Shown here piece after piece: positions 6,818-11,753 of a stretch of 64,000 nucleotides of DNA. The DNA comes from Pyrobaculum sp. WP30. Lineage in GTDB: Archaea > Thermoproteota > Thermoprotei > Thermoproteales > Thermoproteaceae. Below the pieces are notes generated by a model. The model saw only the letters and a list, made by a program, of their open reading frames with translations. It searched no databases and was not told the origin of the DNA. The DNA lies in contig CP012158.1 of the NCBI GenBank assembly GCA_001189275.1, positions 1,240,001 to 1,304,000 of the forward strand, in the 5' to 3' direction. Position numbers and translations under genes: made by a program. The first letter of the stretch is position 1, and each line of letters starts with the position of its first letter.

Positions 6818-6870
6818 CCTCTGCCCTAAGGGGTTCTCCCTGGTTCTGCATCGATGCGCGCCCGGCGTCA
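6814..6870 (-). repeat. Degraded right end of TnpB-type element at map stop codon
   Basis: CTGACCTCTGCCCTAAGGGG followed by TTCTCCCT matches the right end of the TnpB element at 62156 (CTGACCTCC, then GCCCTAA, then GGG and TTCCCT) with a few small gaps. As in the better copies, the leading C-TGA supplies the last base of a sense codon and the stop of the upstream gene (map: CTC TGA). No left end or GTAA is recognisable, so it is a short, decayed copy. It lies between map and the thermosome promoter. Confidence 0.5.
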
Positions 6871-6904
6871 GAAAAGTTTTTATATACACAATTTTTGTCA
6901 AGCC

Positions 6905-8554
6905 ATGAGTCAGGCAGTATTAACCCAAATAGGTGGCGTGCCGGTGCTCGTGTTGAAGGAGGGCACTCAGAGGGCTTTTGGAAAAGAGGCGTTGAGGCTG
7001 AATATAATGATTGCCAGAGCCATAGCCGAGGTTATGAGATCCACGCTTGGCCCGAAGGGCATGGACAAGATGCTCATTGACTCCCTCGGCGACATCACCA
7101 TCACCAACGACGGCGCAACGATCCTGGACGAGATGGACGTCCAGCACCCCATCGCCAAACTGCTGGTAGAGATATCGAAGTCCCAGGAGGAGGAGGCCGG
7201 CGACGGCACAACCTCCGCCGTTGTGCTGGCTGGCGCTCTGCTGGAGGAGGCTGAGAAGCTTCTGGAGAAGAACATCCACCCCACCGTTGTGGTGGGTGGA
7301 TTCAAGAAGGCTCTTGACGTGGCGGCTGAGCACCTCCGAAAGGTTGCGGTCCCGGTGAATAGGACAGACGCGGAGACTTTGAAGAAGATAGCCATGACCT
7401 CGATGGGCGGGAAGATTTCCGAGACTGTGAAGGAGTATTTTGCAGACTTGGCTGTGAAGGCCGTGTTGCAGGTCGCCGAAGAGAGAGACAGTAAGTGGTA
7501 TGTGGATCTTGACAACATCCAGATCGTGAAGAAGCACGGCGGCTCCCTCCTCGACACGCAGCTTGTCTATGGCATAATTGTGGACAAGGAGGTGGTGCAC
7601 GCCGCGATGCCTAAGAGGGTTGTAAATGCGAAGATCGCGCTTCTAGACGCTCCTCTTGAGGTGGAGAAGCCGGAGATCGATGCCGAGATCAGGATCAATG
7701 ACCCCACTCAGATGAGGGCGTTTCTGGAGGAGGAAGAGAAGATCCTCAAGAGCTACGTGGATAAGCTCAAGGCGCTTGGCGTTACTGCCCTGTTTACGAC
7801 GAAGGGTATTGACGACATTGCCCAGTACTACCTCGCCAAAGCCGGCATCCTTGCCGTGAGGCGCGTGAAGCGTAGCGACATTGAGAAGCTTGTTAGGGCG
7901 ACCGGTGCCAGGCTGGTGACAAACATTGAGGACTTGACCGAGGCCGACCTCGGCTTTGCCGGGCTTGTTGAGGAGCGGCGTGTTGGCGATGAGAAGATGG
8001 TGTTTGTGGAGCAGTGTAAGAACCCGAGGGCTGTGTCTATCCTGGTGAGAGGCGGCTTCGAAAGACTTGTTGACGAGGCGGAGCGGAACCTAGATGACGC
8101 GCTGTCTGTGGTGGCCGACGTGGTGGAGGAGCCCTACATCTTGCCTGCTGGCGGCGCCGCCGAGGTTGAGGCGGCTAAGGCCGTTAGGGCGTTTGCGCCT
8201 AAGGTGGGCGGCAGGGAGCAGTACGCCGTGGAGGCTTTTGCAAGGGCGCTTGAGGCCATCCCGAAGGCTCTTGCGGAGAACGCGGGTCTCGACCCCATTG
8301 ATATATTGACTGAGCTGACTCATAAGCATGAGCAACCTGACGGCTGGCGTTACGGCCTTGACGTGTACCAGGGCAAGGTTGTGGAGATGATGGCTCTTGG
8401 GCTCATTGAGCCGCTTACGGTGAAGCTCAACGCGTTGAAAGTCGCTGTTGAGGCGGCTTCCATGATCCTGCGTATCGACGAGATCATTGCCGCCTCTAAG
8501 CTGGAGAAGGAGGAGAAAGAGAAGAAGGAGGAGAAGAAGGAGGAGTTCGACTAG
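6905..8554 (+). CDS. ths: Thermosome subunit (group II chaperonin)
   Basis: 549 residues from ATG 6905; an in-frame codon at 6854 would add 17 residues unlike the family and would begin before the TATA box (TTTTTATATA, 6877-6886). ATP-dependent double-ring chaperonin of the cytoplasm. Nucleotide-binding motifs are clear: TLGPKGMDK near 40, GDGTTSA near 93 and the C-terminal GGGAAE-like PAGGAAEVEAA near 410. The C-terminus is a charged Lys/Glu tail (KEEKEKKEEKKEEFD) rather than the Gly-Met repeats of many chaperonins. Whether it is the alpha or beta subunit cannot be decided. Strong, leaderless promoter. Confidence 0.96.
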   Translation: MSQAVLTQIGGVPVLVLKEGTQRAFGKEALRLNIMIARAIAEVMRSTLGPKGMDKMLIDSLGDITITNDGATILDEMDVQHPIAKLLVEISKSQEEEAGDGTTSAVVLAGALLEEAEKLLEKNIHPTVVVGGFKKALDVAAEHLRKVAVPVNRTDAETLKKIAMTSMGGKISETVKEYFADLAVKAVLQVAEERDSKWYVDLDNIQIVKKHGGSLLDTQLVYGIIVDKEVVHAAMPKRVVNAKIALLDAPLEVEKPEIDAEIRINDPTQMRAFLEEEEKILKSYVDKLKALGVTALFTTKGIDDIAQYYLAKAGILAVRRVKRSDIEKLVRATGARLVTNIEDLTEADLGFAGLVEERRVGDEKMVFVEQCKNPRAVSILVRGGFERLVDEAERNLDDALSVVADVVEEPYILPAGGAAEVEAAKAVRAFAPKVGGREQYAVEAFARALEAIPKALAENAGLDPIDILTELTHKHEQPDGWRYGLDVYQGKVVEMMALGLIEPLTVKLNALKVAVEAASMILRIDEIIAASKLEKEEKEKKEEKKEEFD

Positions 8555-8558
8555 TTTT

Positions 8559-9101
8559 TTAAATTACTTTTCTTGCTAGTAATAATATTGCTATTACTGT
8601 AATTGTTAGTATTATGTCTTTTGTTACTATAAAGTGAGGCAGTATTATCGATAGGGAGGTGGCGGTGATGACGATTTTTGACCTGGTCCTCAGCGCCGCA
8701 TATCTGGCTTTAAAGAAGGGGGCCGAGGCGACTATGGGCTTCTTCTCCTTCTTGGCTACGGGGTCTTCTATTTGGGGCTCCGCCAGCGCTCTGTAGATGA
8801 TCTCATCTGCGGTGTAGAGGTCTTTCAAGGCGGCGAGGTATCTGCGGGCGGCGGCTTCTTTCTCTGGGTTTGACAGGAGCTTTCTCGTTTTTTCCAGGGT
8901 CTTTTTGTGTATCTTTTCTGTTAGGAGAATGCTTGAGGTCAACACAGCTACTGCGAGATATTTAAAGGCGGGGTTCGCCAGCAACGCCAACCCGCTTAGG
9001 AGTACGCTGGCCATGGCAGATGAGGCGAGTACGAGGACCAGCTTATTATACGCCTTCTCATGTATCTCTTGGATTCTGTGCGCTATGTATTCACTTAACA
9101 T
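8559..9101 (-). CDS. Membrane protein, last gene of secretion-ATPase operon
   Basis: 180 residues with two pairs of hydrophobic segments (about 22-45 and 46-62; 140-160 and 163-178) around a charged helical middle of about 75 residues. This layout (helical hairpins flanking a cytoplasmic domain) recalls a reduced type II/IV secretion platform protein (GspF/TadC class), but I cannot show homology. It overlaps the upstream ATPase gene by 11 nt, so the products are probably made together and may act together. It converges with the thermosome gene, 4 nt apart. Confidence 0.65.
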   Translation of the reverse strand: MLSEYIAHRIQEIHEKAYNKLVLVLASSAMASVLLSGLALLANPAFKYLAVAVLTSSILLTEKIHKKTLEKTRKLLSNPEKEAAARRYLAALKDLYTADEIIYRALAEPQIEDPVAKKEKKPIVASAPFFKARYAALRTRSKIVITATSLSIILPHFIVTKDIILTITVIAILLLARKVI

Positions 9102-10134
9102 AGATCTCCACGACCCGCCTCTCTATGACAGCCCCATACCGCTTGGCAAGCTGTACGATGGCTGTGTTTTTCACCTCTGTGTATCTCTCTAGTCTCCTCA
9201 ACGCCTCTTCTACCGTCGCTGAGTGCATAGTTGCGAACGTCTGGAGCCCCATCTCTGTGGCTGTTTTAAACGCATGGAAGTGATCCTCATACTGCAACTC
9301 ACCTATGAAAACCAGATCTATGTTTCTGTTTAGAGATGCGTAGATCTGCCTCGCCTTGTTCACGTCGCGTATCTTGATCTGGTTTTTGTCCGGGTCCTCC
9401 TCAAGCTCATCTGCCTCGTCTATGTAAACCCGTTGCAAGTTGCCGGGAATTACGTCGTCAAGTGCGGCTAGTAGGGTGGTCTTGCCGCTACCCGGCGGCC
9501 CCGCCACCACTATATGCCTCCCCTCCTTTAAAGCTACAAAGATCTCCGCCAGTTGCTCACGCGTTAGGAAGCCGCTCTCCACCAGTTGACGCAAGGTGAT
9601 CTTGCTCCTGTGTATGCGGATGTAAGCTTGTGGGTTCGGGACGATGGGGGGCAGGTCCAGCGATACTCTCATTCTCATCTTGCCAAACCGCAGGCCGTAT
9701 CTAAACGAGGGGTTTGCTGTGGTGAGTTCAATCCCCTTCATCTGAGCGAGCTTTAACAAGCTTTTTATCGTGGCGCCGTCTGCCGTTTTCGAGGTCTTGA
9801 ACTTACCGCTTCTCTTCGTTACGTAGATCGGCCGGCCCGGCACCAGCAGGATATCCTCCACCTCGTCTTCGACTAGGTCGGCGATCCCCTGGAGGCCTAC
9901 TGTGGCCAAAGTTGCTCTCACGGCGATTTCGGCGTTTATTTTTGTGAAGAGCTCGTAGCGCAGTTGCAATGTTGTGTCTACGTCTTTGCTGAAGATTCTT
10001 GACGACAGGGCCACTACGTCTCGCATCTCCTCCTCGGCGAAGACGCAGAGGCCCTTCTCGAGACATGCGTGTTTACACTCAACGCATTCCACTATTCGGG
10101 CCAGGAGATGTGGAAAGTTACTCTTGAGCAACAT
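9091..10134 (-). CDS. Type II/IV secretion system ATPase (GspE/TadA family)
   Basis: 347 residues. Walker A is VAGPPGSGKTTLL (about 210-222), the Walker B region with aspartate box reads VFIGELQYEDH (about 275-285), and the His box is TMHSATVEEALRR (about 302-315). The N-terminus carries a cysteine cluster (CVECKHACLEKGLC, about 17-30), which may bind a metal or Fe-S cluster; this is unusual for the family and is an inference. Such ATPases power archaeal pili and related machines at the membrane. It sits between a TFB-like protein (17-nt overlap) and a membrane protein (11-nt overlap). No prepilin gene is seen nearby. Confidence 0.85.
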   Translation of the reverse strand: MLLKSNFPHLLARIVECVECKHACLEKGLCVFAEEEMRDVVALSSRIFSKDVDTTLQLRYELFTKINAEIAVRATLATVGLQGIADLVEDEVEDILLVPGRPIYVTKRSGKFKTSKTADGATIKSLLKLAQMKGIELTTANPSFRYGLRFGKMRMRVSLDLPPIVPNPQAYIRIHRSKITLRQLVESGFLTREQLAEIFVALKEGRHIVVAGPPGSGKTTLLAALDDVIPGNLQRVYIDEADELEEDPDKNQIKIRDVNKARQIYASLNRNIDLVFIGELQYEDHFHAFKTATEMGLQTFATMHSATVEEALRRLERYTEVKNTAIVQLAKRYGAVIERRVVEIYVK

Positions 10135-10618
10135 GCCGCCTTAGTTTTGTAACCGTGTCTCTTATACTGAACTTACTTATGTTAAGCAGTAGAGCTATCT
10201 GTTGCTTGTGTATGTGGTAACCCGTCTTCTCCGCGGCCATGTAGAAAAGAGCCGCGGCCAGCACCCTCGGGTTTTTGCCCTGGTACACCCGCTTATCTAG
10301 ACCTTGAAAAGTTGACAACGCAACCCGTTCAAGATCTGGGCGGCCCAGCTCCCTCGCTATTTTGGCTACGTAGAACCTCACCAACTCGCTGTATTTCCTT
10401 TTGACCGTCTCCTTCGTTTCTCTCTGGAGAAATACGAGGAGGCGGCTTTCTCTCCTCAGCGGCATTTCAAGTTTCACCCTTGGCAGGACAAGCTCGTATC
10501 CCACCACTGTGCCGCAGTCGGTACACACATACTCGCCGTTCTCATTTAGTATTATTTTGTCAGACTTACAATATGGACAAATCACGTATCGATGGTTTTT
10601 TCGATGTATTAAACTCAT
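10118..10618 (-). CDS. TFB-like protein with zinc ribbon and one cyclin repeat
   Basis: 166 residues, about half a normal TFB. Residues 12-40 form a zinc ribbon (CPYCKSD...YVCTDCGTVV). The rest, about 60-166, aligns with a single cyclin-like repeat ending in a helix-turn-helix (IALLLNISKFSIRDTVTKLRR). Full TFB has two repeats and bridges TBP-DNA to RNA polymerase; this short form could still contact polymerase through its ribbon but is unlikely to clamp TBP in the usual way (inference). It heads a three-gene operon with a secretion ATPase and a membrane protein and may regulate it. An A/T-rich tract lies directly before the ATG. Confidence 0.8.
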   Translation of the reverse strand: MSLIHRKNHRYVICPYCKSDKIILNENGEYVCTDCGTVVGYELVLPRVKLEMPLRRESRLLVFLQRETKETVKRKYSELVRFYVAKIARELGRPDLERVALSTFQGLDKRVYQGKNPRVLAAALFYMAAEKTGYHIHKQQIALLLNISKFSIRDTVTKLRRHVAQE

Positions 10619-10709
10619 AGATTATATCTTATTCTATGAAGAGAGGGTTGGGTCAAAGTTTTTATGAAGTCCTCATCAAAATTTTTATACCGAGCCCAAA
10701 ACATGCGGC

Positions 10710-11024
10710 ATGGAGTTTTCGCTAAAAGTTGACGACGTAACAAGCGGCGCCCCCAACGTAATCACCTTGAAAGGCGATGTAGATGTGGTACTGGAGCTAC
10801 CGCTAGATAGGCTTGGAATAAGCATATCTAAAGGAAATAAAATAAAACTAGTTATACATAAAGAAAAAGACCAAGATCTACACAAGTACAAGATCTATGC
10901 ATGGGGCATCGTGTACTACGTAGGGGAGGGAATAACGCGGATCTCCATAGGAGGCCTGCAACTCGACATCAAGAAAGAACTCCCATTAAAAATCGGCGAA
11001 AAAGTATACGTCGGTCTTATCTGA
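10710..11024 (+). CDS. rpo8: RNA polymerase subunit Rpo8 (RpoG, Rpb8-like)
   Basis: 104 residues, of the length and all-beta pattern of crenarchaeal Rpo8, the orthologue of eukaryotic Rpb8. The diagnostic C-terminal part, YKIYAWGIVYYVGEG then ISIGGLQLDI (about 54-88), parallels the YxxYGxxY and SxGGLL motifs of Rpb8. The N-terminal half is strand-rich with the acidic/hydrophobic pattern VDVVLELPLDRLGI. TATA AATTTTTATACC is centred 26 nt before the ATG. The last codon and stop (ATC TGA) coincide with the end of a transposon-like repeat, so the final residue may have been changed by insertion (predicted ATG TAA before). Confidence 0.8.
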   Translation: MEFSLKVDDVTSGAPNVITLKGDVDVVLELPLDRLGISISKGNKIKLVIHKEKDQDLHKYKIYAWGIVYYVGEGITRISIGGLQLDIKKELPLKIGEKVYVGLI

Positions 11025-11237: not shown

Positions 11238-11321
11238 GTAAAACCTCAACGGCCGCTGGGTAGCGCTTCTAAAACGGCTGGTGAACCCTACAAATTTTAA
11301 TACTTGGAACTCGCCCCCCTC

Positions 11322-11753
11322 ATGGCTTCAACACTGGCGGAATCCAGCAAACGTTTTGTTGCCGAGCTAAACAACGTAATCGGAAAAGAGGTACAGGTGG
11401 TCTTGTCAAATGGGGAGGTCTACAGAGGAGTCCTCCACGCCGTTGACACCCAACTCAACGTCGTTCTTTCAAACGCAGTGGGCAAAACAGGCGAGAAATA
11501 CGCCAGAGTTTTCATTATGTACAGATACATCGTTCACATAGACAGCATAGAGAAGCGCATAGACATGCGGGAGTTCGCAAAATACGCAGAGAAGGTGTTT
11601 CCGGGCATGGTTAAATACGTAGAGGAGACAAACACTGTTCTAATAGGCGACAAGGTACGCGTCAGCGAAATAGGGGTAGAAGGCGTGGGTCCGGTGGCTG
11701 AGCGGGCGAAGCGGCTCTTCGAGGAGTTTCTGAAGTCTAAAGGCGTTGACTAG
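11322..11753 (+). CDS. Sm-like archaeal protein, SmAP3 type
   Basis: 143 residues. The N-terminal Sm fold shows Sm1 (GKEVQVVLSNGEVYRGVLHA then DTQLNVVL, about 22-50) and Sm2 (VFIMYRYIVHI, about 63-73). About 65 further residues form a second domain (EKVFPGMVKYVEETNTVLIG...), as in SmAP3 of Pyrobaculum aerophilum, which forms large rings; RNA binding is the expected role. I chose ATG 11322 over TTG 11304 because the TATA tract AAATTTTAATA is centred about 24 nt before it. Its end overlaps the convergent lhr gene by 4 nt. Confidence 0.88.
   Translation: MASTLAESSKRFVAELNNVIGKEVQVVLSNGEVYRGVLHAVDTQLNVVLSNAVGKTGEKYARVFIMYRYIVHIDSIEKRIDMREFAKYAEKVFPGMVKYVEETNTVLIGDKVRVSEIGVEGVGPVAERAKRLFEEFLKSKGVD

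Follow-up and report, generated by a model that had tools for sequence, protein, structure and literature searches.

Three overlapping genes in Pyrobaculum sp. WP30 encode a shortened TFB, a secretion-type ATPase and a small membrane protein, and they raise the question of whether such a set can build a surface filament and, if so, from which pilin. We studied them in a stretch of 64,000 nucleotides (the window; G000:C1:1240001-1304000 within the 1.99 Mb genome) and in related genomes. A preliminary description had reported a TFB-like protein with a zinc ribbon and a single cyclin repeat, whose frame overlaps that of a GspE/TadA-type ATPase, which in turn overlaps a four-helix membrane protein. 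All three genes were found on the minus strand as described. The half-size TFB (arCOG05559-like) lies at positions 10118-10618 with 166 residues from the listed start, the GspE/TadA/VirB11-type ATPase of T4P subclade 4D at 9091-10134 (347 residues), and the membrane protein at 8559-9101 (180 residues). The overlap is 17 nt between the TFB and ATPase frames and 11 nt between the ATPase and membrane protein frames.

The trio had also been taken, tentatively, for a minimal membrane machine with its own transcription factor and without a known description. The half-TFB, ATPase and small membrane protein do form a conserved operon, but one of a kind already described as T4P subclade 4D, which comprises the arCOG05558 ATPase, the arCOG05557/13890 membrane protein and the arCOG05559 TFIIB variant, with a neighbouring rpo8-type gene called RPB8 (Makarova et al. 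2016, PMC4858521). These authors found "no potential pilins" in the subclade, gave its function as not known, and considered either that unidentified pilins are supplied from elsewhere or that the pilus role was lost. The single-cyclin TFIIB variant was said to be limited to Pyrobaculum-Thermoproteus, and a two-cyclin TFIIB (arCOG01981) is present in many other T4P loci (PMC4858521), so that a link between a TFB and a pilus locus is not new in itself. Within the literature searched, arCOG05557, arCOG05558 and arCOG05559 are named by this paper alone. Our trio resembles subclade 4D in its ATPase without a C-terminal domain and with N-terminal cysteines, its protein of the 4-5 transmembrane (TM) helix class, its single-cyclin TFIIB and the adjacent rpo8. 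It differs in having a candidate pilin, in the two-repeat TFBs of orthologous loci in other families and orders, and in that the retained repeat is repeat 2. The identity of the kept repeat, a longer version of the locus in sister families and orders, and a dispersed minipilin that matches the ATPase in distribution go beyond the 2016 census.

The ATPase matched the Pfam family T2SSE with 52.5 bits (cut-off 24.9) and its motifs are intact; it has a Walker A motif (GPPGSGKTT), a His box and no C-terminal extension, and CpaF was among its matches in solved structures. The four-cysteine cluster noticed earlier at its N-terminus is real and reads C17-x2-C20-x3-C24-x5-C30. This motif occurs in the window's genus, with related motifs in family f3 and in G001, and is missing in the next genus; five sister-order ATPases that we examined have no such pattern. 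By kinship, we read the window's genus as Pyrobaculum-like and the next one as Thermoproteus-like. A putative cytoplasmic metal site would suit the cysteines better than the disulfides proposed in 2016. The TFB-linked ATPases, including those of sister orders, formed one clade (100/99) when compared to 18 other T4P ATPases from the same genomes, and the ATPases of window-type and sister-order loci are therefore orthologous. A scan of genome contigs for ATPases gave distant ones among the matches listed. The trio ATPase is not the sole T4P-type ATPase of any genome in the family, since PF00437 finds another in every one of them.

The TFB-like protein matched the TFIIB zinc ribbon with 40.1 bits (cut-off 29) and a single TFIIB repeat with 27.6 bits (cut-off 23.6) in Pfam. 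Because most homologous TFBs begin one residue ahead of the first Cys, translation more likely starts from the GTG at 10585, which would give a protein of 155 residues. To identify the repeat, profiles of repeat 1 and repeat 2 were built on three sets of sequences: canonical TFBs, two-repeat TFBs (family f3 and G001), and both sets combined. Repeat 2 outscored repeat 1 in 13 of 13 short TFBs; with the f3 profiles, P0001 scored 46.3 bits for repeat 2 vs. 1.0 bits for repeat 1. The half-TFB also matched PDB 1ais_B at its second repeat, and the gap in its alignment removes the B-reader/linker and repeat 1. Thus, of the canonical features, the zinc ribbon is present, the B-reader/B-linker is missing, and the pair of cyclin repeats is represented by repeat 2 only. 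Recognition of the BRE, which lies upstream of TATA, is a role of repeat 2 in TFB generally (PMC7289017). Shortening by a sequencing error, which would have undone the preliminary description, is ruled out, as the half-size form was seen in all related genomes of the genus and of the next genus.

The membrane protein has two TM helices, a cytoplasmic stretch and two further TM helices. It gave no Pfam match, and profile comparisons found no tie to TadB/TadC. It sits where platform-like proteins sit in relatives, and its position and topology fit a GspF/TadC platform, from which we infer that it may serve as one. In the genomes of g6, TFB and ATPase are retained but have no membrane protein next to them, and in G007, G008 and G011 (L083, L171, L172) TFB and ATPase occur with no membrane protein gene directly adjacent.

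The neighbourhood of the trio is conserved as well. A chaperonin gene (6854-8554, plus strand) flanks it on one side. On the other side there are an rpo8-like RNA polymerase subunit gene (10710-11024, plus strand; RNA_pol_RpbG 20.0 bits, under the cut-off of 27) and an Lsm protein gene (11319-11753, plus strand). The same flanks, chaperonin on one side and rpo8/Lsm on the other, were found in most trio loci of the genus and the next genus. The rpo8-like gene is divergent from the trio in the window and co-directional in Thermoproteus-like genomes. Upstream of the TFB gene, on the minus strand, a block at 10638-10662 (AAAACTTTGACCCAACCCTCTCTTC; AAACTTTTAG..AACTCTCTC in relatives) is, judged by eye, conserved in the window's genus and more loosely in the next genus despite the different rpo8 orientation there. 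It is a possible promoter or control element.

The three genes are conserved as a set in nearly all Pyrobaculum- and Thermoproteus-like genomes. The trio was present in 10 of 11 genomes of the window's genus, split across contig ends in G034, and G033 has none of the three genes. In the next genus, all six genomes have TFB and ATPase, with a membrane protein at the same place. Identities within the genus are 47-74% for TFB, 62-76% for ATPase and 44-63% for the membrane protein; to the next genus they are 39-45%, 44-49% and, where a membrane protein was found, 19-29%, respectively. This side-by-side conservation is far beyond chance.

Some TFBs occur apart from the other two genes. In G043 and G044, a TFB of 225-226 residues (L221:6890-7567, L096:8755-9435) stands between chaperonin and rpo8, and the ATPase, the membrane protein and the minipilin described below are gone; this TFB looks like an intermediate that retains part of repeat 1. 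Its persistence without the other genes indicates that the TFB serves some purpose independent of them. G032 has a second half-TFB (L091:8964-9464), 46-47% identical, which adjoins a permease-like protein with four membrane helices, and two further broken half-TFB copies at other places. G028 has an extra TFB-like frame of 184 residues (L218:5808-6362) next to a 934-residue protein that has one membrane helix close to either terminus. Because the TFB outlives the machine in G043 and G044, and extra half-TFBs occur in G032 and G028, TFB and machine are not strictly bound.

A longer form of the locus was found outside the two genera. Genomes of genus g8 in family f3 have, at the same place, a two-repeat TFB of about 275 residues, an ATPase of 500-525 residues and a membrane protein of about 255 residues. 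Searching with the g8 TFBs yielded further variants from sister orders, several of which adjoin an ATPase. The gene order in these sister-order loci is chaperonin, minipilin, membrane protein(s), ATPase, TFB, (rpo8) and Lsm. Their TFB is full-length and their membrane proteins are larger. Pilin-like genes are present, as is a conserved minipilin carrying a class III prepilin motif, and several further small proteins with an N-terminal membrane helix are often encoded. Compared to these loci, the trio of the window appears reduced, with the minipilin relocated, the other pilin-like genes lost, the ATPase and membrane protein shortened and the TFB halved. We infer reduction rather than growth because the long form spans several families.

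The absence of a prepilin, which had been noted earlier, holds at the locus; for the genome as a whole it probably does not. A profile built from four sister-order minipilins matched short relatives in family f3 and, weakly, in the window's family. A second profile, made without the sequences of G000, G027-G032, G034, G035, G037 and G040, found the minipilin of the window's genome with an E-value of 1.4e-19. Most other genomes of the order have one too, almost invariably in a single copy. The candidate of the window's genome has 62 residues and lies outside the window on the plus strand at about G000:C1 1863308-1863496 (L282:6309-6497). Its N-terminus reads MRG|AVLVEEVLLLL, and its gene is flanked by genes of siroheme/heme synthesis (HemD-like and NAD-binding neighbours). 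Every minipilin that we read has the pattern [RKA][GA]|[SADT]xxxEE followed by a hydrophobic helix, with Glu at +5/+6, and those of the window's family keep an N-x-S/T sequon past the helix. In 10 of the 13 sister-order genomes that carry both genes, a few kb at most separate the minipilin from the ATPase; in the window's family it is unlinked to the trio and surrounded by unrelated genes. The sister-order minipilins gave no Pfam match, and the minipilin profile gave no meaningful match to solved structures and matched no solved pilin. By motif, linkage and distribution, we consider the minipilin a candidate pilin. A four-helix gene near the minipilin was considered as a platform and ruled out, since it encodes an M48 peptidase.

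We compared the distributions of ATPase and minipilin in 81 genomes, with the border of the 4D-type ATPase clade set at the gap between 237.9 and 179.8 bits. Both were present in 42 genomes and neither in 34, giving agreement in 76 of 81. All five mismatches were in genomes that are 54-87% complete, and the two genes agreed in 44 of 44 genomes with at least 90% completeness. Fisher's test gave 5e-13, a value that ignores kinship, which the pattern follows in part. Joint absence was found in G033, g3, g5, g7 and G049, as well as in families with neither gene. Another T4P ATPase of the family as partner of the minipilin is ruled out by distribution: G033, G043 and G044 have both of the two other common types yet lack the minipilin, and G032, G036 and G037 have the minipilin though one of these types is missing.

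These data led us to the view that the trio is quite probably the reduced core of a Tad-like type IV filament machine (T4P 4D) with a dispersed minipilin, and that it is probably regulated by its own TFB. That the machine is probably not pilin-free follows from the pilin-like genes in sister-order operons and the candidate pilin encoded elsewhere in the window's genome. In such a machine, the ATPase would act through the four-helix protein, which would stand in for the platform, and drive minipilins of about 60 residues, encoded far from the trio, out of the membrane and into a pseudopilus or thin filament. The genome's prepilin peptidase presumably cuts the minipilin after the glycine; prepilin-peptidase-like proteins were found in 17 of 19 family genomes, all under the Pfam cut-off. 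The half-TFB could reach the RNA polymerase dock via its zinc ribbon and DNA via cyclin repeat 2. Since the B-reader/linker and repeat 1 are missing, it should not start transcription alone, and would most likely adjust transcription of the pilus regulon in trans beside TFB1, modulating initiation by TFB1. Plausible targets are its own operon, through the block at 10638-10662, and the minipilin gene. A fuller version of this proposal is more tentative and falls somewhat short of probable. In it, a Tad-like archaeal pilus is complete but scattered and is built from a minipilin with about 60 residues; the operon with its own TFB predates the split of the orders in the class, and in Pyrobaculum and Thermoproteus this TFB was pared to a zinc ribbon and one DNA-reading repeat acting on the pilus regulon.

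Makarova et al. favoured a "transcription-related pathway" (PMC4858521). Close to it is the possibility that the pilus role was lost, and that the ATPase together with the membrane protein acts as a switch tethered to the membrane, holding or releasing the half-TFB and so coupling a membrane or redox signal (the Cys cluster) to transcription. The overlapping frames, which suggest coupled synthesis, the TFB next to rpo8, the lack of pilins at the locus throughout the window's order and the Cys motif in the ATPase are consistent with such a switch. We find it improbable, because orthologous sister-order loci hold the minipilin and other pilin-like genes, the ATPase co-occurs with the minipilin, and the Cys motif is missing in Thermoproteus-like ATPases.

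The half-TFB might instead work independently as a general regulator that activates or blocks RNA polymerase, its position near the pilus genes reflecting no more than an ancient shared neighbourhood. That it accompanies the ATPase in all other lineages with a full ATPase locus, across several families and orders and often with overlapping frames, makes this rather unlikely, although the machine was lost and the TFB kept in G043 and G044, G032 has an extra half-TFB (L091) at a separate place, and the surrounding genes belong to information processing. The last alternative concerns the minipilin, which could be another small membrane protein whose pattern arose from kinship or chance. Its gene is unlinked in the window's order with unrelated neighbours, and neither Pfam (for the sister-order members) nor solved structures recognise it. 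Against this, every member read has the prepilin motif with Glu at +5/+6, the linkage in 10 of 13 sister-order genomes includes membrane genes as well as the ATPase, and the co-occurrence covers isolated absences such as G033 and g3; a non-pilin is thus very unlikely.

The proposed filament machine can be compared with three known systems. Flp pilins are very short, are cleaved at a Gly and have Glu near +5. Like bacterial Tad/Flp pili, the system here has a TadA/CpaF-type ATPase and a very short candidate pilin with these features; unlike them, its minipilin matches no known pilin family, TadB/TadC matches are missing and a TFB lies inside the operon. Sulfolobus TFB3 is likewise a shortened TFB paralogue tied to pilus genes, in this case those of Ups pili, and aids TFB1 in trans (PMC5817253, PMC7289017). 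However, TFB3 lies outside the ups operon and is said to be without a DNA-binding domain (PMC5817253), whereas our half-TFB overlaps the ATPase gene and keeps repeat 2 with its helix-turn-helix. On this domain content, with TFB3 known by description (PMC5817253), we ruled out that the half-TFB is its orthologue. The Ted conjugation-type pili of Pyrobaculum share the organisms and a small helical pilin, but their ATPase is of the VirB4 type and their pilin is cleaved by signal peptidase I (PMC9905601). The system here has a T2SSE/VirB11-type ATPase and a minipilin with a class III motif in place of a VirB4-type ATPase and a VirB2/CedA1-like pilin. A part in Ced/Ted DNA import is ruled out by the ATPase type, the class III motif and the lack of a solved-pilin match (PMC9905601).

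The 2016 census left the pilus status of 4D open (PMC4858521), and a candidate pilin together with a series of intermediate loci makes this question directly testable. If our proposal is true, it offers an archaeal example of a surface machine accompanied by a general transcription factor, together with a naturally minimal TFB (zinc ribbon and repeat 2) for dissecting the roles of TFB parts.

Two minor observations were made in single genomes. The G034 minipilin (L246:2261-2458) is identical to that of G038, a member of the next genus, and may be on a stray or mixed contig. At the trio locus of G032, and in this genome only, a prepilin-peptidase-like gene (L090:11946-12536) lies two genes from rpo8.
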